Assembly (NCBI GenBank): GCA_963556145.1
Contig: OY744472.1
Span: 992,001-1,056,000, forward strand
Direction: 5' to 3'
Source of the DNA: Hygrocybe punicea
Taxonomy: Eukaryota > Basidiomycota > Agaricomycetes > Agaricales > Hygrophoraceae
Length of the DNA: 64,000 nucleotides
The position numbers and the translations under genes were made by a program. The notes below the pieces were generated by a model. The model saw only the letters and a program-made list of their open reading frames with translations. It was not told the origin of the DNA and did no database searches. Numbering within the stretch: position 1 is the stretch's first letter; every line of letters starts with the position of its first letter. Below are positions 3,166 through 64,000 of the stretch, piece by piece.

Positions 3166-3207
3166 GTGTGTTTTTTTCAACTTTTTTGGATTGACTTGTA
3201 TGGTTAA

Positions 3208-39655: not shown

Positions 39656-39659
39656 TGGG

Positions 39660-42165: not shown

Positions 42166-42214
42166 CTGCAACACAGACACATCTGATATAATGTGTGTAC
42201 AATTGTGGGTGGAA

Positions 42215-42930
42215 GGGGAATGCATCAGAAAAAGGCTGGGATATCTACTGAACACTGACTGAACACTTTCGACCTGTACGACGAGTAGTCAATGTGTGCA
42301 TTAAGGATAATTCTAATACACATTGTACATGTAGCTACACAACAGATACATCGAATACGTTGTTCGTACAACGATTTGTGCAAGGGAAATGCCACAGATG
42401 AAGGCTGGACATCAACCGAACACCCTACCGAACATACCGAACACTTTGCAAGTAGTCAATGCTTGCATTAATATTAATTCTAATACACATTGTACTGGTA
42501 GCTACACTACAGATACACCGAATACGTTGTTCGTACAACTATTTGTGCAAGGGAAATGCCACAGATGAAGGCTGGGACATCAACCGAACACCCTACCGAA
42601 CATACCGAACACTTTGGACCTGTTCGACAAGTAGTCAATGTTTGCATTAATATTAATTCTAATACACATTGTACTGGTAGCTACACTACAGATACACCGA
42701 ATACGTTGTTCGTACAACAATTTGTGCAAGGGAAATGCCACAGATGAAGGCTGGGACATCAACCGAACACCTTACCGAACATACCGAACACTTTGGACCT
42801 GTTCGACAAGTAGTCAATGCTTGCATTAATATTAATTCTAGTACACATTGTACATGTAGCTACACTACAGACACATCGAATACATTGTTCATATGACTAT
42901 TTGTGCAAGGGGAATGCCCCACATGCAGGC
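42215..42930. repeat. 179-bp tandem repeat, four copies
   Basis: Units contain AAGGCTGGGACATCAACCGA, ACCGAACATACCGAACACTT, TAGTCAATGCTTGCATTAAT and ACACCGAATACGTTGTTCGT. Copies begin about every 179 bases (for example 42,459, 42,638 and 42,817 for the same point). The first copy is more diverged. A fifth, diverged copy lies at about 43,920-44,110 on the other side of the 82-bp array. Confidence 0.9.
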
Positions 42931-43920: not shown

Positions 43921-44110
43921 ATGTTTGTGCAAACACCGTACAGATGTTTGTGCAAACAACTGCGCCAGATTAAAGCTGGGACACCTACCAAACACTCACT
44001 GCACACATTTGGACCTGTGTGACAAGTGTACAATAGACACTGTTTGACCTCATTTCATTATCAACAATTCTATTACACACAGTAGATGTGGCTACATGAC
44101 AGATACCACT

Positions 44111-44435
44111 CACATATTGTTCATTCATACACGGCACATTGCATTATGAATGCATGTGATCATTATCAGAAACCAATTGCAATTGCAATACCAACATGAT
44201 ATAACACTACCCATTTCCAAATTGGCTGCTGTGATCCGGCTGCCTTATTGTTCTTGCTGATTGGGACAACCAATTCTCACACTCAACTCCGCCCAGTCAC
44301 ACGGTTTCATAATTATTCCCAGGGCTTCAAAATTGTTCCCACAGTTTCACAAAATTGTTCCCACGGCTTGGCAAATTAGAGTCTGACCCTGAGTTTGAGA
44401 ATCCACCGTATAGAACGATTCCCTTATAGGGACTC
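44111..44435. other. Unassigned sequence between repeats
   Basis: AT-rich, with a threefold TTGTTCCCACRG-like word near 44,315-44,370 (ATTATTCCCAGGGC, ATTGTTCCCACAGT, ATTGTTCCCACGGC). No gene seen. Confidence 0.4.
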
Positions 44436-46345
44436 GTAATTCCCCACTGGCACTGGATGGGCCCACATTGGGTGGGATATTTATTCCACACTGGCACTGG
44501 ATGGGCCGAGGTGAGGTAGGATATTTATTCCCCAATGGCAGTGGATGGGCCCACATTGGGTGGGATATTTATTCCACACTGGCACTGGATGGGCCGAGGT
44601 GAGGTAGGATATTTATTCCCCAATGGCAGTGGATGGGCCCACATTGGGTGGGATATTTATTCCACACTGGCACTGGATGGGCCGAGGTGAGGTAGGATAT
44701 TTATTCCCCAATGGCAGTGGATGGGCTGAGATGGGGTAGGATATTTATTCCGCACTGGCACTGGATGGGCCGAGGTAGGGTAGGATATTTATTCCCCAAT
44801 GGCAGTGGATGGGCCCACATTGTGTGGGATATTTATTCCACACTGGCACTGGATGGGCCGAGATGGGGTGGGATATTTATTCCCCACTGGCACTGGATGG
44901 GCCCACATTGGGTGGGATATTTATTCCACACTGGCACTGGATGGGCCAAGATGGGGTGGGATATTTATTCCCCACTGGCACTGGATGGGCCCACATTGGG
45001 TGGGATATTTATTCCACACTGGCACTGGATGGGCCGAGGTGAGGTCGGATATTTATTCCCCAATGGCAGTGGATGGGCCGAGATGGGGTAGGATATTTAT
45101 TCCGCACTGGCACTGGATGGGCCGAGGTAGGGTAGGATATTTATTCCCCAATGGCAGTGGATGGGCCCACATTGGGTGGGATATTTATTCCACACTGGCA
45201 CTGGATGGGCCGAGGTGAGGTAGGATATTTATTCCCCAATGGCAGTGGATGGGCCGAGATGGGGTAGGACATTTATTCCCCACTGGCACTGGATGGGCCC
45301 ACATTGGGTGGGATATTTATTCCACACTGGCACTGGATGGGCCGAGGTGAGGTAGGATATTTATTCCCCAATGGCAGTGGATGGGCTGAGATGGGGTAGG
45401 ATATTTATTCCGCACTGGCACTGGATGGGCCGAGGTAGGGTAGGATATTTATTCCCCAATGGCAGTGGATGGGCCCACATTGTGTGGGATATTTATTCCA
45501 CACTGGCACTGGATGGGCCGAGATGGGGTGGGATATTTATTCCCCACTGGCACTGGATGGGCCCACATTGGGTGGGATATTTATTCCACACTGGCACTGG
45601 ATGGGCCAAGATGGGGTGGGATATTTATTCCCCACTGGCACTGGATGGGCCCACATTGGGTGGGATATTTATTCCACACTGGCACTGGATGGGCCGAGGT
45701 GAGGTCGGATATTTATTCCCCAATGGCAGTGGATGGGCCGAGATGGGGTAGGATATTTATTCCGCACTGGCACTGGATGGGCCGAGGTAGGGTAGGATAT
45801 TTATTCCCCAATGGCAGTGGATGGGCCCACATTGGGTGGGATATTTATTCCACACTGGCACTGGATGGGCCGAGGTGAGGTAGGATATTTATTCCCCAAT
45901 GGCAGTGGATGGGCCGAGATGGGGTAGGACATTTATTCCCCACTGGCACTGGATGGGCCCACATTGGGTGGGATATTTATTCCACACTGGCACTGGATGG
46001 GCCGAGGTGAGGTAGGATATTTATTCCCCAATGACAGTGGATGGGCCGAGTTGGGGTAGGATATTTATTCCCCACTGGCACTGGATGGGCCCACATTGGG
46101 TGGGATATTTATTCCACACTGGTACTGCATGGGCCGAGATAGGGTGGGATCTTTATTCCCCACTAGCAGTGGATGGCCCGAGGTGGGGTAGGATGTTTAT
46201 TCCCCACTGGCAGTGGATGGGCCGAGGTGGGGTAAGATATTTATTCCCCACTGGCACTGGATGGGCCGAGATGGGGTGGGATATTTATTCCGCACTGGCA
46301 CTGGCTTCGGTGGGATATTTATTCCCCACTAGCAGTGGATGGGCC
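44436..46345. repeat. 44-bp satellite, right block, with 660-bp higher-order repeat
   Basis: About 43 units of the same 44-bp repeat as the left block. Positions 44,700-45,360 recur as 45,360-46,020 with the same order of unit variants, a higher-order period of 660 bp (15 units). The last units (46,040-46,345) diverge and then fade by about 46,470. Confidence 0.95.
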
Positions 46346-46771
46346 GACATCAGGGGGACCAACATTTCCCACCAAACGTGGGGATGCGATATATCTGTCC
46401 CCTGGCAGAGAGGGAGATTTCTTTTCCACTGCCATTGGATGGGCCAAGATTAAGGTAATATTTACTCTACACTGGCATCCACATCCAGAGGATAACGAAA
46501 TCTCTTTCCTGACATTCTGTAGATACACGCTGCAGATATCAGGACATATTCTCGCCTCCCTGAACTTTAATAACCACATTTTTTACCAGTCATTCCACCT
46601 CTTACTGGACCTCACTTTTCCATATTTGTATTGAAACATTATGCATTTCAATGTAGCAAATGATACACATCACATCATGCAGACAGGACAAGGAAACAAT
46701 GACAAAATTAACACATTGACTCTGGAGCATTGCAGATATGAAGACCAAGCTTGCAGCCAGACCAGAGAATA

Positions 46772-49008
46772 TCACTTCCTTAACCTCTCACTGGTCCTCA
46801 CATGTCCAGTCTTAGGTTTTTTGGGGTTGTCCTTTCTTTTTGATGATGCTCCCCCAGCACCTCCGCCATGGCGCGGTTTGCCCTTGCCCTTGCCCTTGTC
46901 CCCACTGGGTGGTCCAGGTGGATCCTCAACCTCATGCTCTTCCTCTTTCTCTTCCAAGAATGTCCTCAGCCTATCTGCTCTCTCCAACAACTTGTGAGTG
47001 TGTTCCGCGGTGTACGAAGATCCCCACACATATTCGGGAATCCCCCTGGTAGAGTCGAAGTTGCCTTCGGTGAAGTGAGCGGCCGCAAATTCTCGTAAGG
47101 CCAGGCCAATGACCAATAGAATAACTGCAATGTCAGCCGGATATTGCAACGTCTCCATCCATACCATGATCTCTTCTAGAGCATTGCCATCATGGAACTC
47201 AGGCGGCAGAAATTGGCCGGGGTAACTCCATGACATCCAGGCATGTTCAGGATTATTGACGTCCCATTCCTGACCCAGGTTATTCATTTCAACACGTATT
47301 CTTGAAATGTATTACTCACATAATGGTCATAGCAAAACTTGACCAAACTCAGGTATTGCCTACTGTCGTTCAAGGTTTGTAAATATGCAAATCTTGCCTC
47401 TTTGTCTGGGCCGACTGCGGCTGGACTAAACAACCAGATAAACAAATGGAAATGCACATGGGGCAGATAATGCATATCACTTACGATCGATTTGGCAATG
47501 TGCTTGCGGCCCCATACTCAATCCGTGTTGAAGGTCCAGGCTTGTTGTCCGAGATGTCGTCATCATCAGAAATATCCACATATCTCCTTTTCTTGGCGTT
47601 TTTGTTCTTCAACAGATTCTCTGTATCTGAGGCCCTCGCAGACTTGAATTTGAGGGCCACCAACCCGCCTGCCTGCCGGTTCTCCCAGTGGTCAAAGACC
47701 AGCTTCAGCTGGTCCTTCTTCATCTTTGTTGGCTCCATTATCTGCTGTCCATTGGGGAGATACTCAGCATCTATAAATTCCCCCAGGGAATCTCTTATCC
47801 TCAACCATGGGACTGTCGCATTCTGGTTGTTCGTATATTGGCCTGCAACATATGGTGAGTCGTGTTTTATTCCAGTCATTCTGCTCAACTTACGGTAAGA
47901 CATTGTCACAAATGCCCTAAAGACATCCTTCTTCTTCGGCAGTGACATCCCCTTTGTGTCAGGGAGGATGGGTGCACCAAACTCGTCGACTTGCAAGACA
48001 AATGGCACGCTCTTATCGTGTTCCTTCCTGGGCAGGCTGGGACCCTTTCCCTTGTCGACATCACTTTCTTCTCCATCACTCTGCTCATCTAATGTATGAT
48101 CAGAGAAGTGAATGTTGATGATACCCTGAACATACCATATTCGGTAAACACCCACTCATTCCATAATTTCATCACCTCGTCCTGGAAAGTTTTGCTTTTT
48201 GAAAAAATTTCCCCTTGAATGTTGTGGGTTTCAAATCTACCGATAATGTTGGGTGAGTTCAAATAATTTGCAGCAGGTGAAATATTACTTCGTTGTTTGA
48301 GCAACGCCTTTCCGATCCTTCCAGCCAACCAAGACAAGCACCTTCGCCCCCATCTGCACATCCAATTCCTTTACAAACTTGCTAACCACCTTGCTCATCG
48401 AATTTTCCGCATTGCTACCCCAGAGGCTTCAGTAGAAGACAACGATGTGAGAAAAGGTTTTCACTTACCTACTCCGCACTTCATCTGTTAGTTTCCCACT
48501 ATTCCACTCCGCAGCGAGACCCTCAAACTCTGCCCTTCTTTCGGGGGTCAACTTCTCCATGACCCAGGTGCAAGCATCTTTATATACGGCGATGAACTCC
48601 TTGCTTCCGGGCTTTCCACCTGAAAGCTCCTGGATTCTCTCTTTTATTTCCTCCTTCATCTTCTCCACCACAACAGCGCGTAAGTCCCATGTTCTGACAA
48701 ATTTCGCTCGAGTCTTCTTTTTGCCAGCATCCTCATGTCCATCATCCTTGTGATTCTTCAACCATATGATGATTTTCTACATAGAACGTGATGTCAGCCT
48801 ATATGTGAGTATAGCTTATAAGGTGAAGTTCAAGTACTTTGGCCAAACCCTCAATGTGACCATCGTTAACAACTTCCCTGCTCTTCTTCTTTATTTCCGA
48901 ACGAATTCTTTTAATGATCACTGTCTTGCTGTCCCTGTCAGGGGCATTTTGGTAATCCTGCTTATGGTTTTTCAGGATTTCAAGATATTCGGGAACGACC
49001 CAACTCAT
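46772..49008 (-). CDS. Uncharacterised protein, 8 exons, 624 aa, intact
   Basis: Exons 49,008-48,838, 48,776-48,469, 48,426-48,289, 48,236-48,136, 48,088-47,894, 47,842-47,485, 47,425-47,320 and 47,269-46,772 join with consistent phase through introns of 42-61 nt. Residues 60-160 are Lys/Glu-rich and contain YKDACTWVMEKLTPERRAEF and EGLAAEWNSGKL, a helix pattern reminiscent of an HMG box (weak inference). Then come FVKELDVQMGAKVLVLVGW, an acidic patch, VDEFGAPILPDTKGMSLPKK, WLRIRDSLGEFIDAEYLPNG and a basic tail (GKGKGKPRHGGGAGG). I recall similar Agaricomycete hypothetical proteins, but no function is known to me. A cluster of GTCAC/GTGAC motifs lies about 110-180 bases upstream of the start, as for four neighbouring genes. 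Confidence 0.75.
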
Positions 49009-49125
49009 AGTGGAGGGGATGATAGTGGGGATAATTTTGACATGATGCTAAGGGGGATGAGCAAGGGGGAAACAATTTTCAACCATCCAAACACGATCAT
49101 GTGATGCAGGGATTGGATCACGGTC

Positions 49126-49185
49126 ACATGACCTGTGTGACCTGTCACGGCCGATTCACCTGCTGCGACATGTCACATCACATGT
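49126..49185. promoter_or_regulatory. GTCAC/GTGAC cluster upstream of the 49,008 start
   Basis: Contains GGTCACATGACC, TGTGTGACCTGTCACGGCCG with a following ATTCACC, and GACATGTCACATCACATG. The half-site TGTCACGGCCGA is shared with the palindromes at 56,774 and 60,531. Regulatory role inferred from position only. Confidence 0.5.
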
Positions 49186-49458
49186 ATTGCACAGGATTCA
49201 ACCTTTAAGTTTTGCACAAACATGGGATACATTTTGACAACTACTAAAAATACAGTAATGCAATGTATGTAACGAGACATAAAATACAAAATTTGCAGAA
49301 TCGAAAGCTGACAACAATGGGGACAATGACAACATTTGCAGATGGAAACTTATAGTGGAAAATCTAATGATAAATAATGAGAGGCAGACGCGACTGGTAA
49401 ATGATTGATTAAGCATGAGCCGGTATTCTGCTAACGAACAGCAGAACACCTACTTGGT

Positions 49459-52400
49459 TCAGGATGCAGTGGCAACATCCATATCGCCATCAGGGCTGTA
49501 AATCGGCTCCCTAGCGAAATCCCTCTTTTCCGTGGATGTTAAAGCTAATGCCTTTGCCGCATCAGAATTCCTACACTCAATCTTGAACATTGGACCGCTC
49601 CAATTGAAACTCCAAGTGTCGCTTGTTATCGGAGCTTCATCATCCAGCAGGGTTTCCATCAAGGGCATCAATTCGGGCCACTGAGTCTCGAAATGCGCCA
49701 GGATCTTCCTTTCTAGTTTGAGGGAGGTGCAACCAGTTGTCAAGGGCACGTTCACCAATTGTGCCTGCCTCTCGCGTTTGTAAAATATGAGGCAGAGGCA
49801 AAACTGAAGCAGAGCACGTTTGAAGATGTAGGAAGGATGCACCCATATCCCACCCAAAATCGTCACATATTCTCCTGCAAACCAGGTGCAGAATCGGCGG
49901 TATCGCAATCGGGCGAAGGTCTCTTCCTCCTCTTCCAAGTCATCCATCTCACCACTGTAATGGTTTCGATTGATCACCTCCGCCATCTCCAGAAGATTGC
50001 CCACAATCACCACATCCAAGAGGCCAGCAGGGGTCGACACATCAGGAATGTGATGTTCGCGATCTACACCTGTTGAGGATCATGATTTAGGTAGAGGGAT
50101 GAGAACATGAACAGCAACGACATACTGACAGCTGAAGCCTCATTGACACACAAATGTTCATGCCACATACCCATCATTCTTCTCAGAATGGTCCGGGTGG
50201 TATTATGTTGAGTATTTGTGATGGAGTAGGACATGACGAAGGTGTGGATGATTCCAAAACAGGTGTCCTTGATCGACGATGTGGCATAGAAGTGATTTCC
50301 ATATACGATGGAGTCCTGCAGGGTGACTACATAATGGACTGTGTTCGGCCTTTGGAAACTGGCATCATTTGTTAGATAAGTCTGTGATGGAATGAATAAC
50401 GCTCACAAGACATCATTTGGCGTCAACAGCACCCCCTCTTTCTCCCAGATGCCTTTGGATGGACTGAGGGGACCCCAACCCTTTCCAAACGCATGACGAG
50501 TCGTCATGTCTCCATTGCTATTCCAGGGTGGTGTCTCTCTGTTGCGGCGCATGACAACCCAATACTTGCTGCCTGTCATTACCCTTACAACCGTGGCAAA
50601 ACCATCATCATCAGCATGTGGCCAAGAAGTTGCACCCCGCAATGCCGCAGTCCCCCACAAGAGTTCATCTGCGAATGTTTTGCCTGGAATATAACCTGGT
50701 TGTCCCCAGGTTTCCGACATGGCCTGCTCATGGGATGCCAGCGAGCTGGAGGAGAGCATCTTTGTCAAATGAAAACTGAGGATAGATAATTTCGCATCAT
50801 ACCGGTACATGGGCGGTGGATGAACCGTGAGGTGACCCATGGGAAAGTCCAGCATGTTCCAGATGTGTCTTCGTCCTTCTAACAGAGATGCATTATACAA
50901 ATCTTGCAGAGTCCCGACATGCAGCATCTTTCCATGACTTTTCCGGGTGCGAAAGGAACCAACTTTGTCATTTGGTGAGTAACAGCAAGGATCAGTAAAA
51001 GGACAAGACAAACCCTGCACATTACGCTCATGTTTGAGACTCCCAAGTCTGGAGAGACCTTCCAGGTCAAACTGGAGACGTTCCTGCTGTGGGACTCCAT
51101 GGACCAGGATATGTCTTTGTTCAAAGATATCCTGGATCGTCGGGGTATCCATTTGGAGGTACTGATCATATGCCACTACAAAAATACTCGAACCATCCGG
51201 ATCAAATTCTGGGTTGCTAGCAGATGGTAGGTGATGAAGAGGTCTTCCATCTTCATATGAGGCCTCCACCTCCTCTTGGATGGTTCATAAACACCAATAT
51301 TCACATTCATCCTGTGTTGTCCATGTAAATAAATCAAACCAACAACTAGAAATAGGACTAACCGAGCCCGCATTACTTTGAAATGTGAAATGAGCTGCTT
51401 CTGCATTTCGGTCGGCTCCAAAAACCCTGAGAGGCACATGATCCTCAGACATCTGTTGCTCTGGTTAGTTGATATCTCGGGCATTAGAGACGAACTGACT
51501 TCAGGAAGTTCGAGGTTTTTGACCGGAGTGCCATTGAATGACTAATTTCCATCATTAACTCATGTGCATTGAAAGATTGGTCACAAAGTTATACTCACTT
51601 CACCGGGCAGTTCTGATGAAATCATCTGACTTCTGTCCATAAGCTTCCTTTTTTTGCGGCTGTTCCATTTCGAAGCTGGTGCATGCCGTTTCTTGCTTGC
51701 AGTGAAGTAGGTCTGGTACCCAGCAGGAGGTCCATTTTGTGTCGTCTTCCCTTTGAGAGCATTGGTTTGCGAGCGCGTTACCGGGCGCAATTGGGTTCCT
51801 AGCTCAGTTTCGCTTTCTTCTGATTCCTCCTCCTCCTCCTCCTCTTCGCCTTCCCCCTCAGGTCGTGGTCTGGTACCTTCACCCTGTTCGCCCTCCACCG
51901 CTGGCGGTGGTCCACCCCCCTCCGCCACTGGTCCACCCCCTTCCACCACTGGCAGCGGTCCACCGCCCTCCACCACTGGCGGTGGTCCGTTGCTCTCCAC
52001 CGCTGGCGGTGGGCCATCGCTCTGTACCGCTGCTTGTGGTCCATCGCCCTCCACAGCTGGCGGTTGTTCAATGCTCTCCACTGCCAGTGGTGGCCCATTG
52101 CCCTCCACAGCCAGTGGTGGTCCATCACCCTCCACCGCCAGTGGTGGTCCATTGCCCTCCACCGCCAGTGGTCCATCGCCCTCCACCTCCAGCGGTGGTC
52201 CATCCCCCTCCACAGCTGGCGGTGGTCCACCCCCCTCCGCTGCTGGTGGCGGTCTATCGCCCTCCACTGCTGGTGGTGGTCCATCGCCCTCCTCCTCCGC
52301 CAGTGATCCATCACCCTCCACTGCTGGTTGTGGTCCATCACCCTCCAAAGCCGGCGGGGGTTCATCACACTCTCCAGGTTGGCCCTCCCCCCCTGGCTGT

Positions 52401-54667
52401 GGTTCGTCCCCCCGCCCCTGCTGATCCTGCCCTTGCGCCGGTTGTGGCTCCCCCTCACTCTGCTGGGCCTCCCCTTGAGGCTGTAGTGGCTCATTGTTCA
52501 TTTGCTCTTCCTCCCCAACCGGTTGCAGCTGCTCCCTGTCCTGTTCGTGAGCTTCCCCTTCATCGTGTTGCAGCTGTTCCCCCCTCCGCTGGTCGTCCCC
52601 TTGAGGCTGTGGCGGCTCACTGCTCATTTGCTCTTCCTCTCCCGGTGGGTGCAAAAGGTCCTCCACCTCCTCCTCCTCCATCCACCACGGCCGCTGCCCT
52701 GCAGAGTTGTTCCTCTGCCAAGGCTCGTCTTGGTAGTCAGACCAGTTTGTCTGCCCTGGCCGCCAGATGGGGTCATCCTCCTCCTCCTCCTCCTCCTCCT
52801 CCTCCTCCTGGCACTGCTTCTTCTCCCCCTGCTGCTGCTCTGCACCCATGTCGATATCCACATCGACATCCATGTCGACATCGACATCCACTGCCGTTGG
52901 TTCCTCCATGTCCATGTCGGCGTCTTCCTTGCTCCCCTGCTCCTTCTCTTTCCCCTTGGGCTCCGGCTCGGCTGGCTGCTCTTGCTTTTTCTCATGTCGC
53001 CACCTGGTGCCGTTGTCCAATTCTGACTCACTGTCATCATCAATGATGATGACAGGTTCTTCAGATCTGCTCGTGGATGCTGTGTTCTGATTTGCTTGGT
53101 GATGTTTAGGGACTGAGATAACGGGCCCTGTGTTGGAGTTAAATCCTGGGTCAAGGAATGGGAAGACACGATGGAATACATACATTTAGAATACCAATCC
53201 AAGTGCATGTTCTCATCCTCGTAACGGAGGGAGAGCTGCTCAAATTCTCGTAGGAACAATTGGAGTTCCGTCTTTGCATTGGAACCAGTCGACATTCGGA
53301 GCAACATTTGCCAAAGACAGCGTTCCGTTTGCATCAGGCAGGAGGGCTTATGATTACCAAGCAATAGTTTCATCTTTATGTCATGAGGTTAGACAATTGA
53401 GAAAACCGTAAAAGGGTGCTCATTGTGATCAAATGATCCCTGCGAATTTGCTCGTTGTTGAACTGTCGGGGAAGGAGAGCAATGATGGGAGAGATGGAGA
53501 CTGCAAGATGGAACAGATTGACCATCCTCAAGAGAATGGCCTTTGCAGAACTCATGTTTTCGAAAAGCGTAATCAAATCTGAACCCAAAGGCATTCCCAG
53601 GGATGTTGCCCGGCTTCAATATGGCTCCAGTCAGCGTCAACATCATATTACGTATCTCAATGATACTTACCTTCGTAAAGTTAAGATAAATGTCTGTGGG
53701 TTCTCCGGAAGCCGATCCTTGCCCTATATTGGATTTATAAGCCCAACATGGATGCCAAGAAGGGGCAAGATAACTTACCAAGCCAAACCAGCACAGAGCG
53801 AAAGACATGAGTTCCAAGTTGACCAGCGATTGGGTATACTTGGCCTCATGAATATGTTGTCCAGCCCGCAAAAGACTCATGACCCCTTGTTTCAGCAGCG
53901 ACTGCTGATGACTGAGCTGCTCAGGTTCAGCATTCGCGAACAACCTGGCCTTCGCCAAACTTGCCCCAAAGCCATCACCAAGCTGGGCGTTTCTCTCTCG
54001 GGTCCGCAAATCCAGGATGGGTTGAGTCCAATCATCGAGTTTGGTCAAGAGCTATTAGGGGCAACTCAGCGCTGATCTCTTTCATTGAAATACGAACATT
54101 CATGGGCATACCTGTGTTAACTTTACTGGCAAATCATGGGGCTTTGCTCCTCGAAATATGACTGGTGTCGTTCTTGTTGCTGGCACTCCCATTGCATCCG
54201 CAAGCTGGTCCAGAAGAGAATATCGGTTCACAATTTCTGCGGCGGCGCTGATGTACACTGCTGGCGAAGATGACCATCTTCTGGGATTGCCAAAAGTCGC
54301 TAGAGCACCATGAGGTCCACATGCTGCATTCAGATTGAAGAATTCCTTCAAGAATCCTGTAACCCTGTCGCCATACACTCGATGTGGTGAAAAAGCGTCA
54401 AGGCTTTGCACCATGTTCTGGTTCATGTTCAACTTTCGGTTGATTGCTCATCGAACAGAATTATAAACTCACCAAGAGCAGCTGGCCTTGGGAAATGGGG
54501 CAGCTGGAACCTAATAGAGCCAAGCAAAGCTGATCCTTCATAGCGCCTTGAACGAGGAGAGTGCCATTGGTCCATGGAAAGTCACGCAGGAGAGCGGTAT
54601 TGTGTTGAAAAGATATGGCCAACGCTGAGGAAGAGGCTTCAGTTGCTTGGCTGCCACTGCTTGACAT
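49459..54667 (-). CDS. JmjC-domain 2-oxoglutarate/Fe(II) dioxygenase, 11 exons, about 1,508 aa
   Basis: JmjC enzymes hydroxylate or demethylate protein side chains, often histone lysines. Exons 54,667-54,473, 54,432-54,112, 54,051-53,779, 53,723-53,671, 53,613-53,523, 53,373-53,184, 53,127-51,599, 51,541-51,377, 51,272-50,407, 50,358-50,126 and 50,069-49,459 keep phase throughout. The region 53.4-53.7 kb is least certain. The catalytic part shows ALRGATSWPHADDDGFATVV (Fe ligands about His1158 and Asp1160), GSKYWVVMRR and RPNTVHYVVTLQDSIVYG (distal His about 1236), the layout of the KDM2/KDM7-like JmjC fold. The middle is a 500-residue disordered acidic region with EEEEEEEEEDD, DVDVDMDVDVDIDM and about 20 GDGPPPAVEG-type repeats, then a basic KKRKL stretch. 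It looks intact. The N-terminus (MSSSGSQATE) is conserved-looking but unknown. Substrate unknown. Confidence 0.8.
51860..52420 (-). repeat. Coding minisatellite of 27-30 bp in the JmjC gene
   Basis: The exon repeats imperfect units encoding G-D-G-P-P-P-A-V-E about 20 times, with deletions of whole codons only, so the frame is kept. The plus strand is therefore also open over hundreds of codons, which is an artefact. Unit number is likely to vary between strains. Confidence 0.85.
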
Positions 54668-54710
54668 GTTTGAACAGAAAATATTGGTGGTTAAAATGTT
54701 GAATTGACGC

Positions 54711-54747
54711 GTTGTGACATCACGTGTTGTCACATGTTGTCACGTGG
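54711..54747. promoter_or_regulatory. GTGACATCACGTG / TTGTCAC motif cluster upstream of the JmjC start
   Basis: GTTGTGACATCACGTG followed by TTGTCACATGTTGTCACGTG lies 44-80 bases upstream of the JmjC start codon. It contains two CACGTG boxes and shares the TGTCAC word with the other promoter clusters in 49-61 kb. Confidence 0.5.
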
Positions 54748-54922
54748 AAAACCAAATTTGGAAATGGCAGCATCGCTATTAAACTATTAAATAAACTATT
54801 CGTCTACTAGAGCTTGGAATGTGCAGATATTCCATGCCCGAGTGGTTTCCTGTGCACTATTTATTTGTTGATACATTATAGATTGACAGATGAAATGGAG
54901 GGAAGAAAATTTGACAACTTAC

Positions 54923-55509
54923 TTTAGCCTTTTAGACTGGCTAGGAGCAAATGCATCAGACAATGATTCCACCAATGCAGCATATTCATCATGAGACCAC
55001 TCTCGGTGTTCAAAGTCAAATGAAAATGACACAGTGGTGTTCAAAATCTCTGCTGGAAGTTCTCTCAGTTTCCTGCATAGGATAAGTTCACCTGCACTAA
55101 CTCGCTTTGCCTCCCTTCAGCCTTGCATACTCAAGTTGCCATTCACAAGGTTTCACAATGTCTAAATCTAATTGAATGATGACTCGTCTTGGGCTATCCA
55201 GCGCAGGATCAGTATACTGCATGCGATCAACTTTTCGCATGATATCCTGTTATATAGCAGCAGGACTTACCCTCCATGACAAAACCTCACATTCAATTCT
55301 CAGTTCCAGAGACAACTTGTCAGTCTCAAAGTTTAGGAGACATCTATTATGGTCAGCCAGGGACCATGTAATGAATAATTTAAAATTTACCTGGACGACA
55401 CCCATTCATAGGTCAAAACCCCCTCCTTGACTAAAATCGGTGTTCCTACGCCCAAATGGTAATGCTTGACAGGGAGGGGAGACATGTGAAAGAATGATTC
55501 GTGGTTCAT
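54923..55509 (-). CDS. Uncharacterised small gene upstream of the JmjC gene, perhaps truncated
   Basis: Exons 55,509-55,391, 55,343-55,271 and 55,216-55,097 join in frame through 47-nt and 54-nt introns and give 103 aa: MNHESFFHMSPLPVKHYHLG, GTPILVKEGVLTYEWVSSR, LNFETDKLSLELRIECEVLS, YTDPALDSPRRVIIQLDLDI and VKPCEWQLEYARLKGGKAS, then TAG. Directly after, another frame continues with KLRELPAEILNTTVSFSFDF and EHREWSHDEYAALVESLSDA to 54,923. The sense of the sequence suggests the protein originally ran on and that a small deletion or an unseen intron separates the parts. No family is recognised. A GTCAC palindrome sits 49 bases upstream of the start. Confidence 0.5.
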
Positions 55510-55557
55510 GAGAAACCTGTGACGAACCTGAGGACAAGGTCACATGCTTTGTGAGTG

Positions 55558-55583
55558 GTCACGCCCGACGAATCGACCGTGAC
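55558..55583. promoter_or_regulatory. Palindrome GTCACG...CGTGAC upstream of the 55,509 start
   Basis: GTCACGCCCGACG and, after two bases, TCGACCGTGAC form an inverted repeat with half-site GTCACG-CCGA. It is 49 bases from the start codon. Further TGTGACG and GGTCACATG words lie at 55,517-55,540. Confidence 0.5.
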
Positions 55584-55601
55584 GAGGTTATTGACCATTA
55601 C

Positions 55602-56381
55602 CCTATTCGGTTACAGTTGCCAAATATGGAAACGGCTTCCAAAACGTTCTTGCTGTTCTAGAGAGCCAAAGAATGGCTATTGGACCATTGCAACAGTCCC
55701 AGAACTGAATGTCAACTGGTAGTAGGATGTGAACAACTTGGGGTATTTTTGGTGCAAATATATGGAGCGATATTCATGTTTTGTTGACACCCCTCCGCCA
55801 AAATAGGACCCTGAAACTTATATATCTCTCTTACACCGAAAATAAAATGGCAAAAAAATCCGAGGTAGCAGCTTTGGAAAGGCATGATGCATTGGAATGC
55901 CCTGTTCATGTGTGCCTGGAGGTTTATGACATGTGAAGTTATATACAGCGAATGATGAATTGGCAGGTAACATGACCTGGAATTTGCATGATCATCACGT
56001 TTGTTTGACTTTTGATAATTTGGCATCCATGGCCAAACTGTAACCAGGTCAGCTTGCAAACTCAAGGCACACATGAAGAATGCATTGCAATGCATCATAA
56101 CTGTCCAAAGCTGCCAGCGTGGATTTTTTTGCCATTTTATTGCTGGAGTAAGAGAGATATATAAGTTTCAGGGTCCTATTTTGGCGGAGGGGTGTCAACA
56201 AAACATGAATATCGCTCCATATATTTGCACCAAAAATACCCCAAGTTGTTCACATCCTACTACCAGTTGACATTCAGTTCTGGGACTGTTGCAATGGTCC
56301 AATAGCCATTCTGTGGCTCTCTAGAACAGCAAGAACGTTTTGGAAGCCGTTTCCATATTTGGCAACTGTAACCGAATTAGG
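55602..56381. mobile_element. Long inverted repeat element (780 bp, arms of about 290 bp)
   Basis: CCTATTCGGTTACAGTTGCC at the left pairs with the right end (reverse complemented CCTAATTCGGTTACAGTTGC). Complementarity continues with very few mismatches through TTTGTTGACACCCCTCCGCC and AAAATAGGACCCTGAAACTT. The loop is about 170 bases. Both arms encode the same peptide (REIYKFQGPILAEGCQQN) only because they are copies of each other. No target duplication is clear. It separates the minus-strand genes on its left from the plus-strand genes on its right. Confidence 0.8.
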
Positions 56382-56773
56382 CAATTCGATCATCCAATTT
56401 TCCACTTGTTGTCCAGAAACACATCTTGTTCTCCAATCTAAAACCTTGCTATTTAATTTGGAACCTCTTCCATCCTGTGGTGCTATGCCCAATCCTCCCT
56501 GCATTTTGTCTCAGCTAACCCTCCAATCTTCTTTTCTCCTCCTACGCTCTCATCTTTAGGCAACATTTTAAACCCTCTCCGGTTTCAAATGGCATGGACT
56601 TCAATTGTCGTTCTTCATCCGCTGAATCTCGCCTGCAACTGAATTGATTTCCCATGCGCCACTCCTTTTTGGTGGTAGGAATCTTTTCTAACAATTTTTT
56701 CTAGTCAGATTATCTACTTTCTCTGTTCTATTTATGTGTTCACGGACTTCACGCTCGGGCAGCTATGTGACCA
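56382..56773. other. No gene recognised
   Basis: Pyrimidine-rich sequence without a frame of interest, next to the upstream motif of the small gene at 56,828. Confidence 0.4.
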
Positions 56774-56801
56774 TGTCACAGCTGATTAGTCGGCCGTGAC
56801 A
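56774..56801. promoter_or_regulatory. Palindrome TGTCAC...GTGACA upstream of the 56,828 start
   Basis: TGTCACAGCTGATT and AGTCGGCCGTGACA form an imperfect 28-bp inverted repeat ending 26 bases before the start codon at 56,828. Half-sites match those at 49,143 and 60,531. Confidence 0.55.
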
Positions 56802-56827
56802 TTTTAACCCCAACCCAAACAATAGTT

Positions 56828-57160
56828 ATGGCCAGACATCCCCATGTATATTTCCGCGACATCAGAGTTTACGCCAACAAACCCCACGTTAAACGGAGGG
56901 TCATCCGCGATGTGCAGGCTGCCGCGGTCCACCAGAGATGGGGCGCGTCTGGGGTTGAATGGGCGGAAATCCGGTAATGCACCATGACTTGATGACTTTT
57001 TTTTAGTGCTCGTTAACTTGCTCATAGTGGTCCGGCGCATTATGGCGGGACGCGCCGGACCGAACCGCTACATACGACAGTCCGGCTCTACACAAGAGAA
57101 GGATATCGTGTCACCACTTTGCATGTTTACCATGCAAGGAGGGGCGTTTTGAATACTTGA
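56828..57160 (+). CDS. Small uncharacterised protein, two exons, 92 aa
   Basis: Exon 1 (56,828-56,973) reads MARHPHVYFRDIRVYANKPH, VKRRVIRDVQAAAVHQRWGA and SGVEWAEI. A 54-nt intron (56,974-57,027, GTAATG...CATAG, with a GTTAAC branch-like word) leads to exon 2 reading GPAHYGGTRRTEPLHTTVRL and YTREGYRVTTLHVYHARRGV before TGA at 57,158. The protein is strongly basic and rich in His, Arg and Tyr, with beta-strand-like periodicity. I do not recognise it. G+C content is higher than in the surroundings. It could be a stand-alone nucleic-acid-binding protein or a detached 5' part of the downstream TET/JBP transcription unit. Confidence 0.45.
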
Positions 57161-57954
57161 GGTAAGTCTCAATATTTCCATAGTCTCTCTTCCAGCGGCT
57201 AAGAACTACTTAGATATAACAAATTAGGACCTGTATCTAACATTTAAATGCTTCATTCATCTGTTTTTCCTCCAAATATTTATCGGCATGTTCATATTGA
57301 TAGTTTTTTTTTGCGTTGTAATGGACATGCTAATCATTAGAACTACTATAAAGATCAATCGATCGATCGATTGATCGCTTATGTAATCATAGGGAGCCGG
57401 GAATCCCCTCATCCAGCGATTGTTCCAAAGGTTGACTTATCCAATTATGTAATCATTCAAAATTAAAATAATTTCATTTATTATTTCCAAAATAAAGTAA
57501 ATTAAAGAAGTCCTCAACCGCGGGCCCGCCCCAACCAACCAATAGCTGTTTCCCATCGATCTTGATTCGGCGTCGTTAATTTGGATGACCTGGAAGAGAG
57601 TCTGAATGTTGCTGCGTTGTAGGGGCCCCTACTTCACAGCAAATTCAAGCTCTCTGGAAAAAACAAAGATGCGATGATAAGCATCCATTTAAATGGCAAA
57701 GCAAAGAAGGATTTTGCTTAGCGGATAACCCAAAAGCCGAAATTGATACATTGGTGTTCTACAAGATCAAAGCAAACAATAAGTTGAAAATTCAGGTCCC
57801 AATTTGAGCCGCTTACGAGCACACCCTGCTGGGCATTGAATTTGAGGCAAATGGCAAGGAAAGGGACTGCAAAAACGAATCGAAATCAATCTGAAGCTAA
57901 AGTGTTAGTGTGAAAAGGAGTTTTAAGCATAACTTACGATTTTGCGACCTCTGC
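57161..57954. other. No gene recognised
   Basis: AT-rich in 57,200-57,520 with a short ATCGATCGATCG run at 57,355-57,380. Then mixed sequence without frames or splice pattern. Confidence 0.4.
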
Positions 57955-58320
57955 CAAACTATGTTGCCGTGCAGGATGCTGGCAAACGCGGATAGAGCCC
58001 CCAGTACCCAATGATGCCGCGCAGGATGCTGGCAGACACCGATCAAGCCCCCAGTACCCAATGGTGCCGCGCAGGATGCTGGCAAACACCGATAAAGCCC
58101 CCAGTACCCAATGATGCCGCGCAGGATGCTGGCAGACACCGATCAAGCCCCCAGTACCCAATGGTGCCGCGCAGGATGCTGGCAGACACCGATAAAGCCC
58201 CCAGTACCCAATGATGCCGCGCAGGATGCTGGCAGACACCGATAAAGCCCCCAGTACCCAATGTTGCTGCGCAGGATGACGGCAGACACCAATGAAGCCC
58301 CCAGTACCCAATGATGGTGC
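57955..58320. repeat. 50-bp minisatellite, about seven copies
   Basis: The unit contains CCCCCAGTACCCAATGATGC, CGCGCAGGATGCTGGCAGAC and ACCGATAAAG, recurring every 50 bp (for example CCAGTACCCA at 58,001, 58,051, 58,101). Copies differ by a few bases, and the first and last are more diverged. It lies 370 bases upstream of the TET/JBP start. Open minus frames across it are artefacts. Confidence 0.93.
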
Positions 58321-58686
58321 TGTAAAAGTGGGCTTGTTGGCGAGCAGCTAGAAATTGCGGAAGTAAGTAATGCAAAAGATATATGCAGAATGGAAGACTT
58401 ATCGGCTTATGAAATTGTAACCAATTTCAACCATTCACTGAGGTCTTTTGGCATGTCGCGATTCATGTCAAAACATCCCAGTGATGATGGTTGATGATGG
58501 CTGATAAGCATCAGGTCGCGAAAGATGACATGCCTACCTTTTATGGCAATCAACCAAAGCATGTGATCTTGTTTGCTTGCAGGTGACCGCGTTCTTCACA
58601 TGTGATCTCATGCTGATCGCGTTGTTTGTTTCTATTGACGTGTATCGTTGTGTGACGTGTATCGTTGTATAGGACTTTTTTACCAG

Positions 58687-60062
58687 ATGGTCTCCTCAAA
58701 ACCTATGGGCTCAAAGCACGAAAACTCACAAAAATCGCGGCAGCACATTGGCAAGCGAGGTTCACCAAGTCTGTGCAAAAGGTATTTATTAAATTTATCC
58801 TTTGGCATCCAATCTGAATGTAATGCATGCAGATTGCGACGACGTTTTCTTTTGGTCACCCGCGCCCAGTTGGGTGCAGGTGAACAATTAGATGACCTAA
58901 GAGCTGCCCAGATCGTCACAGAAGCTCTGCTCAATCCGAGTAAGTCATGATGATTCCAATGGCCCAATCTAATTGTTTCTCCATTGTAGTTTATATTCAG
59001 TGGGACCTCGAGGATTACGCCACCCGCGTCAAAAAAGGCCTGGGTACCCCGGCCTCAATCGCCCAATTACAGCGCAAGTTTGCGAATCCCCAACTCGGCA
59101 GGGTGAATAGACCCGCAACGGTGGTGGACATGTGTGGACGAATAATAATCTGGTATCTTCCAGGGTTGATATCAGCCCAGCAAGCTGTAAGTCGTGTCAT
59201 GATCTAGGAGGTTTAATTCAATAGTAGAGACAAATTAGGATGTTATGCTGAATGGCAGTGAAAGCATACAAGTCATCGGCTCAAAAAAGATTCATCGTAA
59301 ACAAACATGCGGGAAGGTCAATTGGCGAGTCGACCCAAAACATTTTCGTTTTGATTCTGTGGATCAGAATCTACTGCCGGGAAGTGATGAGTATTCGGCA
59401 GGGTGGTTCGCACAGGCTCATACTGTGAGTTCCGAAATCCGCCAACATTCCGGTTGCTGGGCTCATTCACATTTTAGAGACCAAGTGACCCTTTGAAGCC
59501 TTCTGCGAACCATCTTAAGCGGGGTACTGGAGAATGGATGTCTTCAATAGCTGACGTAGAATCGTTCATCAATCGGGTCTTCTTTATGGTTCATCCATCA
59601 CTGCAACAAATCGGCAGCGAAGCTTTGGACAAGCTTAGGTCGGCCAACCTGACGGCTAAAGTTGCAGGATCCTGGACATCCCATTTCACTGGGATCGCGG
59701 TTATCATCAACCGGAAGACATTGGCACATCGTGATGGGAATGGTATGCCACCTTGGTATGACTTCCTCCTGGGTATCGGAGACTATCATGATTGCACTCT
59801 TGATATGCCCGACCTTGGACTGCAGCTCGATTACGGGCCCGGAACTGGTGTCTTCCTATGTGGCAACAGCATCAGACACGAAGTCACGGACTGGAGTGGT
59901 GGGGATCGAGTTTGCTATGCTCATTTCCTCAGGAAGAAAGTCTTGGAGCGTCTAAATGTAGAATTGTCAGGGTGGTCTGAGCAGAAAGAGTTTTGTACCA
60001 TCATTCCAGAGGTGAAATGTCGTGAATTGGGTATTAAAAACTCGGCACATGTAGCAGCGTAA
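58687..60062 (+). CDS. TET/JBP-family 2-oxoglutarate/Fe(II) DNA-base dioxygenase, 5 exons, 389 aa
   Basis: TET/JBP enzymes oxidise methylated bases in DNA (5-methylcytosine to 5-hydroxymethylcytosine, or thymine in kinetoplastids). Exons 58,687-58,781, 58,833-58,939, 58,990-59,186, 59,239-59,424 and 59,478-60,062 join in phase through 50-53-nt introns. Residues: LVVDMCG-like core strand ATVVDMCGRIIIWYLPG in the middle, GKVNWRVDPKHFRFDS, then the double-stranded beta-helix with IINRKTLAHRDGNGMPPWYD (Fe ligands His279, Asp281), FLLGIGDYHD, LQLDYGPGTGVFLCG, RHEVTDW (distal His329) and DRVCYAHF (Arg339 for 2-oxoglutarate). All four catalytic residues are present and no stop is seen, so it appears functional. 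The N-terminus is short and basic. A CAG acceptor-like site right before the ATG leaves room for an upstream exon. The KDZ transposase follows 573 bases downstream on the same strand. Confidence 0.88.
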
Positions 60063-60498
60063 ACATCATTCATAAAATATGTACCCTTGTCCTGAACTTA
60101 CGAAATATTACTTTTGTAACATTGCCATCAGCCTATCAGCAGGTTATAGTTCAGATTGTCCACCTTGAGTTGCAATAACAGGAATGAGAGCATCTCAATT
60201 GCGTATCTAGGCACTGAAAGGGAGGTCTGATCTTGGTTGTCTCAAGTTCACGCTTGCATGCTGCAAAAGCACTGCGCCTGGTATATGCCAGGGGGTCAAA
60301 GGTGGATAATATAACATCGTTCCAAAGGTTGGTGCACACCGGTGCAGGTGGGGACTGGTATTCTGGTTGACCATACTGGCGGGGTAACACTGATCTGCGC
60401 AAGTATGAGAAAACAAGGTGGTATGAGAAAACAAGGTGGTTGTCAGTATTGTCAGGCATGGCTGCGAACCATAAGACCTGCAGAAGAGTTGATGGGAG
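60063..60498. other. Intergenic between TET/JBP and KDZ genes
   Basis: Holds a short tandem duplication (GGTATGAGAAAACAAGGTGG, 60,395-60,440). No frame of interest. Confidence 0.4.
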
Positions 60499-60580
60499 CA
60501 CGTGACATGTGTTTCAGAGCCATGATGTGACATGTCACGCCGACTCGTCGGACGTGACACATCACACATCACGTGTCACA
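60499..60580. promoter_or_regulatory. Dense GTGACA/TGTCAC cluster with palindrome, upstream of KDZ gene
   Basis: CACGTGACATG, then ATGTGACATGTCACGCCGAC with TCGTCGGACGTGACACATCA, then CACATCACGTGTCACATC. The core TGTCACGCCGA...TCGGACGTGACA (60,533-60,559) is an almost perfect palindrome, 77 bases before the KDZ start. Same half-site as at 55,558 and 56,774. Confidence 0.55.
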
Positions 60581-60635
60581 TCAACATCAACCATTTGTAA
60601 ACATCAACCAATTTAACATCAACCACCTCCCAACA

Positions 60636-63600
60636 ATGCCCAAGTTGTCCAAAGAGAAACATGGGAAGAAGAGGACAGCTCAAGAAGTCATCTTTGTTGA
60701 GAAAAAGATGAAAAATCGCACAAAATGGGTATCTAAACCAGTCGCAGGTGAGCTTCCCAAAAGTCCACAGAAATCCAGTCCAAAAAAGTCACCTTTGGAT
60801 TCAAACCGTCAGCAAAGCATGTCCCCAGATGTGCCTCCCGACTCAGGTACACCGTAACCTCCAAAGCGCAAGATGGCGAAAGGCAATGTCAGCTATTCCT
60901 TTACCTGCTTTGTAGTCACTCTGAATTATTGGCAGACCCAAAATTGTTACCTCAGGGAGTGGATTCCACTTCGCAACGAATATCTGAGGGAGATGTTGAG
61001 CATGGAAGCTCCTCCTATTCCTGCCACCTGTCATATCTGCAAGAAGCAAGGTGGCCCCATTCGCTGCTTGAGCTGTCTCGGTCGTCCATTATTCTGTAAA
61101 GAATGTTGTCGAATCTCCCACCAGGGGACTCCATTCCACAAACTCGAATCATGGAATGGAAGCTGCTTCACCCCATCCTCATTACATGACATAGGATTCT
61201 GCTTGCATCTTGGGCACGGTGGTGATCCATGTCCCTCCAATTCCGTTCAAGATGTCTGGGAGGATGTTGGGGAAGGCTCATCTTCGATGTCACAGATCGA
61301 GAATGATCAGCTGCTAGTTGACTTGAACCAGGAAGATGATGATAACAACTCGGATGACAGTGTGCTGGTTATGGTTGATATTTCCGGAATCCACCGGCAC
61401 CGTGTTCGCTGGTGTCATTGTCTGTCAAAAGACGAGCCACAATGGCAATTGTTCAAGACCGGTCTCTTTCTGGCAACATTCAAACATCCTCGCTCGGCAT
61501 TTACCTTTCAAGTCCTGGATTACTTTCATGTCGATCAGGTTGAATGTAAGACTTCTGCCAACAATTTCTACTCAAAACTGCGCCGGCTTACAAATAATGC
61601 CTTTCCTGACACCGTATCGGTGAGTCTCCATCTTAAAGGCTGTATTTATGGATGGTGATGGTGGAATGGACCTGTCAAATAGGACCGCTATAGAGAGCTC
61701 ATGAGGGTCTCACGGCAATGGCGTGACATCAAAGTTCGGAAATGGTTTGGTTATGGCCACGACACCGACAAAGAACCAGGCAACGGCGACCTCGCTTTCT
61801 TCTGCCCAGCATGCCCACAGCCGGGCATCAACCTCCCTGATAACTGGAAGGAATTGCCTAATCCGTTAGTAAAATGGACCTGCCAATGTTTATTGAAAGT
61901 AACATTTTCACAGGTGGTTGTATCGGAGAAGCCTCGTGGTGGATGGAAATTTTACTGCGGAACACATGCACATGAGGAATCCCGGCGATGATGTGGAGCT
62001 TACGAATGCAACTGGGTATTTTGTGCAAAGAGCTTCCTATGAAGAGCACATCAAGGAAGCCGTGGAGGTCAAACAGGTGCAAAATTCATTTGTTGTGGTC
62101 TTAGGTTCCAAACTCAAACTTGCATTAGAAATCATCATGTTCCAAGCACAGAGCAGTCACCCAGAGCAATGCAAACAATAAGAACCTGGAATCCACAGGG
62201 GTTGGTGCCTGTGCCTGTGCGAGGCATGGATGCTTCGTTCCGCACAGCATGGTGGATTTTCAGAAGGGTGAAAGGTAATGAGGTCAGGTCAGAATGTCCT
62301 TGACTTGACCTGAAATCCTCGTCAGGCAAATGAACATAGACTACTCAATATGTGAAGCCCTCAAGTACAACACTGAAGGCATGCGGCAAGCTCTCTTGTT
62401 CTATGATGTGATATGTGAGTGGGCGGTGAATTTTGGTAGACGTGTGAAGCAGAGTAGATTTTTGGATGCACCTACCATGGAATTGATCTTTGGTATCGGA
62501 AAATTCCATTTAAATGCTCACAAGGACGACTGCTTTCCAAAATTCTCACCCAACTTTATTCGTGGTGCTGGGCAGCTGGATGGAGAACAGATGGAAACTC
62601 TGTGGGCGATCATCGAGTTGATCTCACGCATCACAAAGTACATGAGCAAGGCTCACCGGCGGGAGATTTTGGATGACATGATGAGACATTCAAACTGGAA
62701 AAAGTTGGTTGGAATGAGTAAGCAACAACCATTACCCTTCTCCTGGTTTGATACTCATCCTCTGAACAGTAAAAATGTTGATAGCAAAACATAAAACAGC
62801 CATCAGGGTCAAACGAGAAAGCAAGGAGGCATATCAAGATTTGTCAAGTTCATTGGATCCCAAATTGGTGAAAAAGTGGAGTGAAAGCCAAACTTTCGCT
62901 GAATCACAGCGTGGGGATGCACTGAAAATTTATCAAGTTGCTTTGAAGCAAGGTCAGTGATATTTCCTCCCCATAGTAGTGATGAATGAACAGTTCGTAG
63001 CACCAACTATGGCGGAAATACGTCTGAAACTGGGGAGGAACACCAAGGGGGAAGCAGGAGATTCCAATGCAGTGGCCTGGTTAGTGTCCGGGCTAAATAT
63101 TGAACAAGCTCAGTATGTTCCTCACATTATATCATCACTTTCCTGTTCACAATTCTGAATTTCAGGGACAATCTCACTCATGATATGCGAAAGCTTAAAA
63201 AAGCCGTTTCCATAGCGGAACAAAACAAGATTATGGATCGACGAAAACGGTTACAAAGCAGGATTGATGCCTTCCAGAGGAAGACAACCTTTCTACTCAA
63301 TGGGCATGACGTGGAGGAAGAGGATTGGGAGGAAAAGGATAAAACATCCCCGGATGTTGGCATGTCCGATGATTCACAAGATTCCGCATCAGATGAGGAA
63401 GGAACAGATTATGAAGAAGATTGTGATCCTATCCTAGCAGAAAATGCTCGTATCAGTTTGCCTTCTAAAATAGGAAAGGAGGTATGTAAAAGGGTGGGAT
63501 GGATTGAAATGGCTTCACAAGAAATGGAGCTTCGAAAAGGACAAGCTAACGAGTCCCTGGAGAAAATACGTTTTGCTCTGGGACATAAAGCATTGCTTTA

Positions 63601-64000
63601 TCGAACAAGGATTAGGAAGGCCAAAGGACAAAAGGCCAAGACACGGACTTGGGGAGCCATTCGTCATGCAGATGTGGCTTTGCATGAATGTGTGAGGTCT
63701 TATGGTCGAGCTTGTAGGGCATTGGTAAACCTGGGTGCGGACAACGAAACATTGGCACATTACCAAGAAATTCGTAGAGAGGATTTGAAGCTTAGTAGAG
63801 ATGTTGTGGAAGAAAACAGATTTGGGCAAAAGAGTGATGCATTGGCATGGTTTTGGAGAATGGGTGACCAGAACAAGGAACAGGAGGACAACTGGATGTC
63901 AGAATGTGAGTTATCAAATGAGATCTACCACAATACACCATTGAAGTTGTAGTAGTTTACAGAGTGAACTGGTTGAGAGCAAAGGCTAGAGCAGAGAGAG
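60636..64000 (+). CDS. KDZ transposase with CxC2 cysteine cluster, 3' end beyond window
   Basis: KDZ (Kyakuja-Dileera-Zisupton) enzymes are DDE-type transposases. From MPKLSKEKHGKKR the exons are 60,636-61,619, 61,683-61,864, 61,914-62,076, 62,129-62,274, 62,326-62,717, 62,770-62,952, 63,001-63,112, 63,166-63,905 and 63,953 onward, with introns of 47-63 nt. The CxC2 cluster reads CHICKKQGGPIRCLSCLG, LFCKECCRISH and HLGHGGDPCP. Next come FFCPACPQPGINLP, SLVVDGNFTAEHMHMR (first Asp), GACACARHGCFVPHSMVDF, LLFYDVICEW (second Asp), FHLNAHKDDCFPKFSPNF, GQLDGEQMETLW (Glu), and a C-terminal helical region ending VYRVNWLRAKARAER at the window edge. The only lesion is an in-frame TAA at 60,855, where Gln would fit. 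It may be spliced out, or a start at 60,873 may be used. All catalytic residues are intact. Confidence 0.85.

Follow-up and report, generated by a model that had tools for sequence, protein, structure and literature searches.

The association of TET genes with KDZ transposases was reportedly first described by Iyer et al. in 2014. TET-carrying Kyakuja-type DNA transposons of Agaricomycotina are already published (Kojima 2025, PMC12730594), so the association that a preliminary, sequence-only reading of the present locus had taken as established in Agaricomycetes is indeed in print. These elements combine a KDZ transposase with an AG-type-like TET on the same element, generate 7-bp target duplications and have a right end in ...TG-3'. 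Transposons with anti-silencing or chromatin-modifying genes also include plant Vandal elements and Harbinger and MuDR elements with SET genes (PMC12730594), and a relative of the TET protein with a PDB entry is CcTet of Coprinopsis cinerea (PDB 7vpn; PMC11040006).

The locus described here lies in a 64,000-nucleotide stretch of the Hygrocybe punicea genome (contig OY744472.1, positions 992,001 to 1,056,000), hereafter the window, in which the following features were placed.

39605..39611, no strand: left 7-bp target-site duplication ACTCCTT; the right copy, 65620-65626, is outside the window
39612..64000, plus strand: in-window part of the KDZ transposon; ends mapped, body common to other copies
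39612..40807, no strand: left terminal region, related to the right end in inverted orientation, together with the initial section of the 44-bp satellite array
40808..44438, no strand: 3.63-kb nested repeat of another family, not transposon proper; interrupts the satellite array and recurs elsewhere in the genome
44439..46304, no strand: remainder of the left 44-bp satellite array
46772..49005, minus strand: possible further gene from open frames, exons and family not settled
49460..54667, minus strand: large gene bearing a JmjC-like H-x-D...H motif, its exons modelled approximately and by hand; disrupted by a stop codon in the window copy
51286..51288, minus strand: premature TGA stop that interrupts the JmjC-like gene in the window copy; copy C6a and metagenome protein P0001 have arginine at this position
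57961..58316, no strand: 50-bp minisatellite between divergent genes
58687..60062, plus strand: intact TET/JBP dioxygenase, five exons, 389 aa, from Pfam, PDB match and residues
60636..64215 (60636..64000 within the window), plus strand: intact KDZ transposase, 10 exons, 1025 aa, from Pfam and residues

The sequence-only reading had confined its feature to 58687..64000, which covers the TET and KDZ genes but is only the right-hand part of an element extending from 39612 to 65619. Taken as a whole, the explanation we consider likely is that this feature belongs to a 26.0-kb KDZ-class DNA transposon, closest to Kyakuja by its domains and target duplication, which is armed with a TET that would oxidise 5mC to resist silencing and which carries a probable partner gene.

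Without the nested repeat, the transposon of the window copy would measure about 22.4 kb. Extension past position 64,000, which had been proposed as a check, located the right terminus 1619 bases beyond the window end. A perfect 7-bp target duplication, different for each copy, was found in all 10 copies in which both ends were compared, and the termini are 5'-GA..TG-3' in the copies read. The terminal inverted repeats are imperfect and span at least 236 aligned columns between the left and right ends of the element. A search of the window with the right-end sequence gave no match that could serve as the left end; the latter, being only imperfectly inverted relative to the right end, was located via the satellites. 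Like Kyakuja, the element has a KDZ domain with a CxC cluster (PF18758, 97.3 bits; CxC2 PF18803, 90.4 bits) together with the 7-bp duplication; Zisupton, which needs an 8-bp duplication, was rejected. Several features depart from the published elements: the left end is GA, whereas Kyakuja has 5'-CA..TG-3'; imperfect terminal inverted repeats are present, whereas Kyakuja-1_LB and Kyakuja-2_LB have none (PMC12730594); and the 44-bp satellite arrays, the 26-kb length and the JmjC-like gene distinguish it from the published TET-carrying Kyakuja, the word JmjC being absent from the main text of that paper. The element size, the terminal structure and the opposite-strand gene with the H-x-D...H motif are new. 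The size, the presence of one or more further large genes and the mutation of copies by CpG deamination had all escaped the sequence-only reading. Two frames of the possible gene at 46772..49005 gave no Pfam match above cut-off.

The TET and KDZ genes stand in tandem on the plus strand, 573 bases apart and both with open frames, just as first described; splice sites of both were placed by hand from the sequence. The TET exons (58687-58781, 58833-58939, 58990-59186, 59239-59424 and 59478-60062) are separated by four GT-AG introns and join into a single open frame; the KDZ gene likewise has GT-AG introns, and its final exon crosses the window end by 215 bases. The TET/JBP identity proposed for the 389-aa protein was borne out by matches to Pfam Tet_JBP (PF12851, 50.4 bits against a cut-off of 34.9) and to CcTet (7vpn, 63.8 bits). 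The iron triad H279, D281 (H-x-D) and H329, with Arg339, occupies the positions originally given, and the two Asp and one Glu claimed for the transposase were again recognized by eye as D376, D490 and E550 or E553. The TET motif is HxD rather than the HxE of the PE type, as in the AG type. The likeness to CcTet covers residues 158-374 and includes H-x-D, the distal His and, by alignment, equivalents of CcTet Gly331 (Gly or Ser) and Asp337, here Gly284 and Asp290; unlike CcTet, the window TET sits in a complete transposon, is a dioxygenase by prediction, and has 157 N-terminal residues without a significant match. Removal of methyl marks from DNA by this protein is probable. By homology, with both CcTet positions conserved, its activity would be on 5mC and perhaps on 6mA.

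A search of the 92-Mb host genome for further TET-KDZ pairs, also suggested at the outset, returned 15 near-complete places, window included (matches of at least about 4.5 kb of a 5.6-kb query, at 90-100% identity), which also have the left half of the element in common. The element family is young. The window copy itself, earlier described as young in appearance, is so judged because it differs from the per-base majority of 11 copies by only 9 non-CpG changes in 5639 sites. Among these 11 copies, TET is broken in six and KDZ in five, and both are intact in only three.

The copies diverge mainly by CpG-to-TpG changes, which are some 20-fold more frequent per site than changes at other C positions: summed over the 11 copies, there were 238 CpG transitions on 402 positions versus 67 on 2210 other C/G positions. 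A mutation pattern restricted to TCG was excluded, as all four NCG contexts are hit (changes/sites: TCG 59/123, ACG 79/97, GCG 46/83, CCG 54/99), and so was a CpA, RIP-like pattern, since the CpA rate (16/461) is near those of CpC (8/248) and CpT (7/269). The family is therefore very probably CpG-methylated, and the host genome contains five pieces matching C5 DNA methylase. Because the copies still mutate by CpG deamination, the presence of TET is not enough to keep the family unmethylated.

Turning to the opposite strand, the H-x-D...H motif of the large gene at 49460..54667 resembles JmjC-type 2-oxoglutarate oxygenases. Four diverged sequences share the stretch W-x-H-x-D-D/E...G-F...G-x-K-x-W, with H-x-D invariant, and in the two that extend far enough R-P-x-T-x-H lies 78-79 residues past the first His, a spacing as in JmjC oxygenases. 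These conserved stretches speak against a reading, possible but the less probable, in which the gene encodes no oxygenase and has another role, the motif being no more than a resemblance. That reading draws on several searches. Two paralogues gave no Pfam match, JmjC included, and PF02373 matches in the host genome fall elsewhere; a four-sequence profile gave no match among PDB sequences, and hhalign against two host JmjC fragments was not significant (E 0.29). AlphaFold models (mean pLDDT 31 and 43) were too poor for a fold, and Foldseek was empty at E<=0.001. Among 5.8 billion proteins, the whole approximate model found none in 7991 candidates; a single exon as query found one protein, and 11 were retrieved with an alignment of three sequences, all of them lacking a precomputed Pfam domain. 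Among open-licence PMC papers there were none linking KDZ with JmjC, none combining TET JBP/KDZ transposons with JmjC and none on captured histone demethylases, though such a link could be in print elsewhere.

The JmjC-like gene is a probable partner of TET. Of 36 diverged JmjC-like paralogues, 32 have a TET gene no more than 12 kb away, mostly in the second of two gene orders, compared with a mean of 1.2 and a maximum of 7 under random placement (2000 draws). The genome holds 122 Tet_JBP matches; the three genes occur together in two orders, KDZ and the JmjC-like gene swapping positions, at 25 and 12 of them, while 60 lack both partners within 14 kb, which partly reflects incomplete scoring of KDZ and JmjC-like candidates. 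Since copies within one family are not independent, linkage by itself is no proof of selection, and TET and the JmjC-like gene might be passive cargo, captured once and riding with the transposase without benefit to the element. The broken TET frames fit that account, as does a pooled TET pN/pS of 0.67 (11 copies, CpG sites included), a weak sign of selection and nearer neutrality than the 0.40 of KDZ. We nevertheless regard passive cargo as unlikely, given that the three genes are kept in two orders, that the JmjC-like proteins are 39-48% identical to each other, with H-x-D invariant in four diverged sequences, and that the TET catalytic residues of the window copy are intact. Service to the host, with many TET copies providing genome-wide 5mC oxidation for gene regulation and the transposon a mere carrier, appears highly improbable: the number of Tet_JBP matches in one genome and the oxidised 5mC described on many transposon classes in Laccaria and Coprinopsis (PMC8889193) would suit it, but TET lies within copies that are mobile and flanked by target duplications of their own, and the majority of copies are decaying.

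Returning to the TET-armed transposon, the transposase would move the element by its ends, while TET would oxidise 5mC on the element, and perhaps also demethylate 6mA, keeping element genes or ends usable despite host CpG methylation. The JmjC-like gene may have the same anti-silencing role; its product would most likely be a second 2-oxoglutarate oxygenase, with chromatin as its target. In favor of this explanation we count the defined ends and duplications, the 15 places, the intact TET and KDZ frames, the kept catalytic and CcTet specificity residues, the CpG transitions, the host methylase matches and the JmjC-like paralogues beside TET; against it, the broken TET and KDZ in many copies, the TET pN/pS, the CpG decay, the JmjC-like stop in the window copy and the 60 partnerless TET matches. 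On balance, the evidence suggests an element equipped with its own means of countering silencing. More tentatively, the pair could form a two-part kit, TET erasing DNA methylation and a JmjC-type oxygenase erasing a repressive histone or chromatin mark, which would be retained as one working unit by two or more element families with transposase and JmjC-like gene swapped around TET. As in Vandal and Harbinger/MuDR-SET elements, an element-borne gene would change epigenetic marks; the proteins and the transposon family differ, the present element having a DNA dioxygenase and a second putative oxygenase.

A TET-KDZ pair can thus belong to an element far larger than the two genes imply. With a young family, both intact and decaying copies and a clear record of CpG deamination, protection by a transposon-borne TET, and its failure, become testable. 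Should the partner gene encode a chromatin demethylase, the element would attack both silencing layers, that of DNA and that of chromatin, using enzymes that it encodes itself.

The TET and KDZ genes lie within one large DNA transposon (39612–65619) in a host assembly of 92.2 Mb and 42 contigs, where the window corresponds to C40:992001–1056000. Its features are listed below, with the exon borders of the TET and KDZ models placed by hand from sequence alone.

Features of the window element
39795–46304: left 44-bp satellite array, interrupted by a 3.63-kb repeat
40808–44438: 3.63-kb repeat of another family, splitting the left array
54667–49460, minus strand: large JmjC-like gene (exon model approximate)
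58687–60062, plus strand: TET gene, five exons, four GT-AG introns, 389 aa
60636–64215, plus strand: KDZ transposase gene, ten exons, 1025 aa
Target duplication of the window copy: ACTCCTT, 7 bp

The sequence-only reading saw an intact TET/JBP gene with a KDZ transposase gene behind it, at 58687–64000, and took the element to be young and possibly active; these models bear out the two genes. The TET protein scores above the Pfam Tet_JBP cut-off and has H279, D281, H329 and R339 at the positions claimed; in a PDB sequence search, its residues 158–374 matched CcTet of Coprinopsis cinerea. CcTet is reported to oxidize 5mC and demethylate 6mA, with Gly331 and Asp337 permitting the use of 5mC as well as 6mA (PMC11040006); the alignment places Gly284 and Asp290 at the equivalent TET residues. 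The type of TET suggests that the host is a mushroom-forming fungus. The transposase matches Pfam KDZ and CxC2, and its final exon terminates outside the window. In a genome search, five of the nine top-scoring Tet_JBP matches (C8:73763, C8:6297963, C1:9470614, C6:18251 and C39:5904369) were no more than ~85 kb from the tip of a large contig and may represent a TET family of their own at chromosome ends.

Whole-genome DNA searches showed that sequence common to many copies extends leftward beyond the TET–KDZ pair to the satellites. The right terminus, which the sequence-only reading proposed to seek past position 64,000, was located at 65619, where the window and ten other copies part at the same base into unrelated flanks. 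The left end is at 39612, and the 12 left ends read start with GAG (11) or GAC (1), then CCCTTGC. A perfect 7-bp direct repeat flanks all ten copies with both ends read, window included (of the 11 copies compared, all but C41b). The terminal inverted repeat is imperfect, with 236 aligned columns, and continues at both ends into 44-bp satellite arrays, the right array lying beyond the window and, by eye, in the opposite orientation to the left. The element measures 26.0 kb, or ~22.4 kb after subtraction of the 3.63-kb repeat. Its right-end pattern occurs at 36 genome places at ≤2 mismatches and its left-end pattern at 24 at ≤3 mismatches. The 3.63-kb repeat is present at about a dozen further genome places and is apparently bordered by TA (by eye). 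Open frames at 46772–49005 (minus strand) represent a possible additional gene of the element, perhaps the HMG-like, divergent accessory gene reported by Iyer 2014. Between the divergent genes is a 50-bp minisatellite (57961–58316), whose repeat number appears to vary between copies. To the right of the element and outside the window, a long inverted repeat seen by eye (L009:3228–3965) is perhaps a fold-back element.

The search for further TET–KDZ pairs, proposed earlier, recovered 15 genome places, including the window, with at least about 4.5 kb of the 5.6-kb query at 90–100% identity. In the 11 of these compared, with intactness judged by alignment to the window gene models, TET is intact in five, KDZ in six and both in three (the window, C6a and C2a). 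Changes counted against the per-base majority and added up over the 11 copies comprise 238 transitions on 402 CpG positions, 67 on 2210 non-CpG C/G positions and 68 on 3027 A/T positions, giving a per-site rate at CpG ~20 times that at other C/G. Over 5639 sites, the window copy differs from the majority by 17 CpG and 9 non-CpG changes, in keeping with the earlier description of the element as young; C41b and C1a, two older copies, carry 85 and 84 non-CpG changes, respectively. CpG changes are spread over all four NCG contexts, and no CpA excess was found among changes in the 11 copies. Five C5 DNA methylase pieces are present in the host genome. The plain reading of the CpG bias is CpG methylation followed by deamination; the decay pattern shows that, despite TET, the copies are subject to methylation in the inherited lineage for at least some of the time. 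Pooled pN/pS was 0.67 for TET and 0.40 for KDZ, a weak test with CpG sites unmasked. Elsewhere in the window, CpG observed/expected reaches its minimum among 16 blocks of 4 kb at 1–4000 (0.18), a depletion resembling that of heavily deaminated repeats.

The JmjC-like protein contains W-x-H-x-D-D-x-G-F...G-x-K-x-W, kept with minor variation in four diverged sequences, and R-P-x-T-x-H 78–79 residues further on in both sequences extending that far. This W-x-H-x-D...R-P-x-T-x-H pattern resembles that of JmjC-type 2-oxoglutarate oxygenases. Neither a Pfam search of the product nor a PDB search with a profile of the protein gave a JmjC match; hhalign against two host JmjC fragments gave no significant match (E 0.29), and Foldseek with poor predicted models gave no match at E≤0.001. 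Among eleven metagenome homologues, the closest, P0001 (a JGI metagenome protein with 6 member sequences), is 94% identical and aligns to the exon stretch 50403–51269 (minus strand), which places a close relative of this element in environmental samples. The window gene carries TGA at 51286–51288, where P0001 and the one other copy compared (L043, copy C6a) encode arginine; indels in a low-complexity linker also separate the window copy from L043.

Scoring of 80 of 221 candidates gave at least 58 JmjC-like core pieces, at least 22 at 85–98% identity (the window element's family) and at least 36 at 39–48%. Among the matches listed, 32 of these 36 diverged pieces have a Tet_JBP match within 12 kb; 31 of them are located downstream of TET on its own strand, and one is upstream on the opposite strand. 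When positions were drawn at random 2000 times, the mean was 1.2 and the highest count 7 (sizes of two contigs approximate). Copies of the same family do not count as independent cases, so this closeness indicates linkage, not selection. Partners were then counted around 122 TET matches, among the JmjC-like pieces listed and the KDZ matches listed (135 of 466 candidates scored). The window's order, with KDZ downstream (median 2.7 kb) and JmjC-like upstream on the opposite strand (9.2 kb), occurs at at least 12, one of these sets (C39:496394) being oddly spaced. A second order, with KDZ upstream on the opposite strand (median 7.7 kb) and JmjC-like downstream on the same strand (3.7 kb), occurs at at least 25, the locus L044 among them. 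Among the matches listed, 17 TETs have KDZ only, eight JmjC-like only and 60 neither within 14 kb, and KDZ core pieces near second-order TETs are mostly 53–60% identical to the window KDZ. Two related element sets thus keep the same trio, with KDZ and JmjC-like swapped around TET. At C39:492768–505879, a KDZ–TET–JmjC-like set has TET inverted relative to other second-order sets.

TET-containing KDZ elements with 7-bp duplications are already in print, and Kyakuja elements contain AG-type TETs (PMC12730594). Compared with published TET-containing Kyakuja, the window element differs in its left terminus and its size, in having inverted repeats and satellites, and in carrying the JmjC-like gene; the term JmjC is not found in the main text of that paper. 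We call the element Kyakuja-like, since it deviates from two features reported for Kyakuja. Transposons are enriched in oxidized 5mC in two mushrooms (PMC8889193). We propose that the element's TET would counter methylation of its own element, and that the JmjC-like partner may assist it in doing so.
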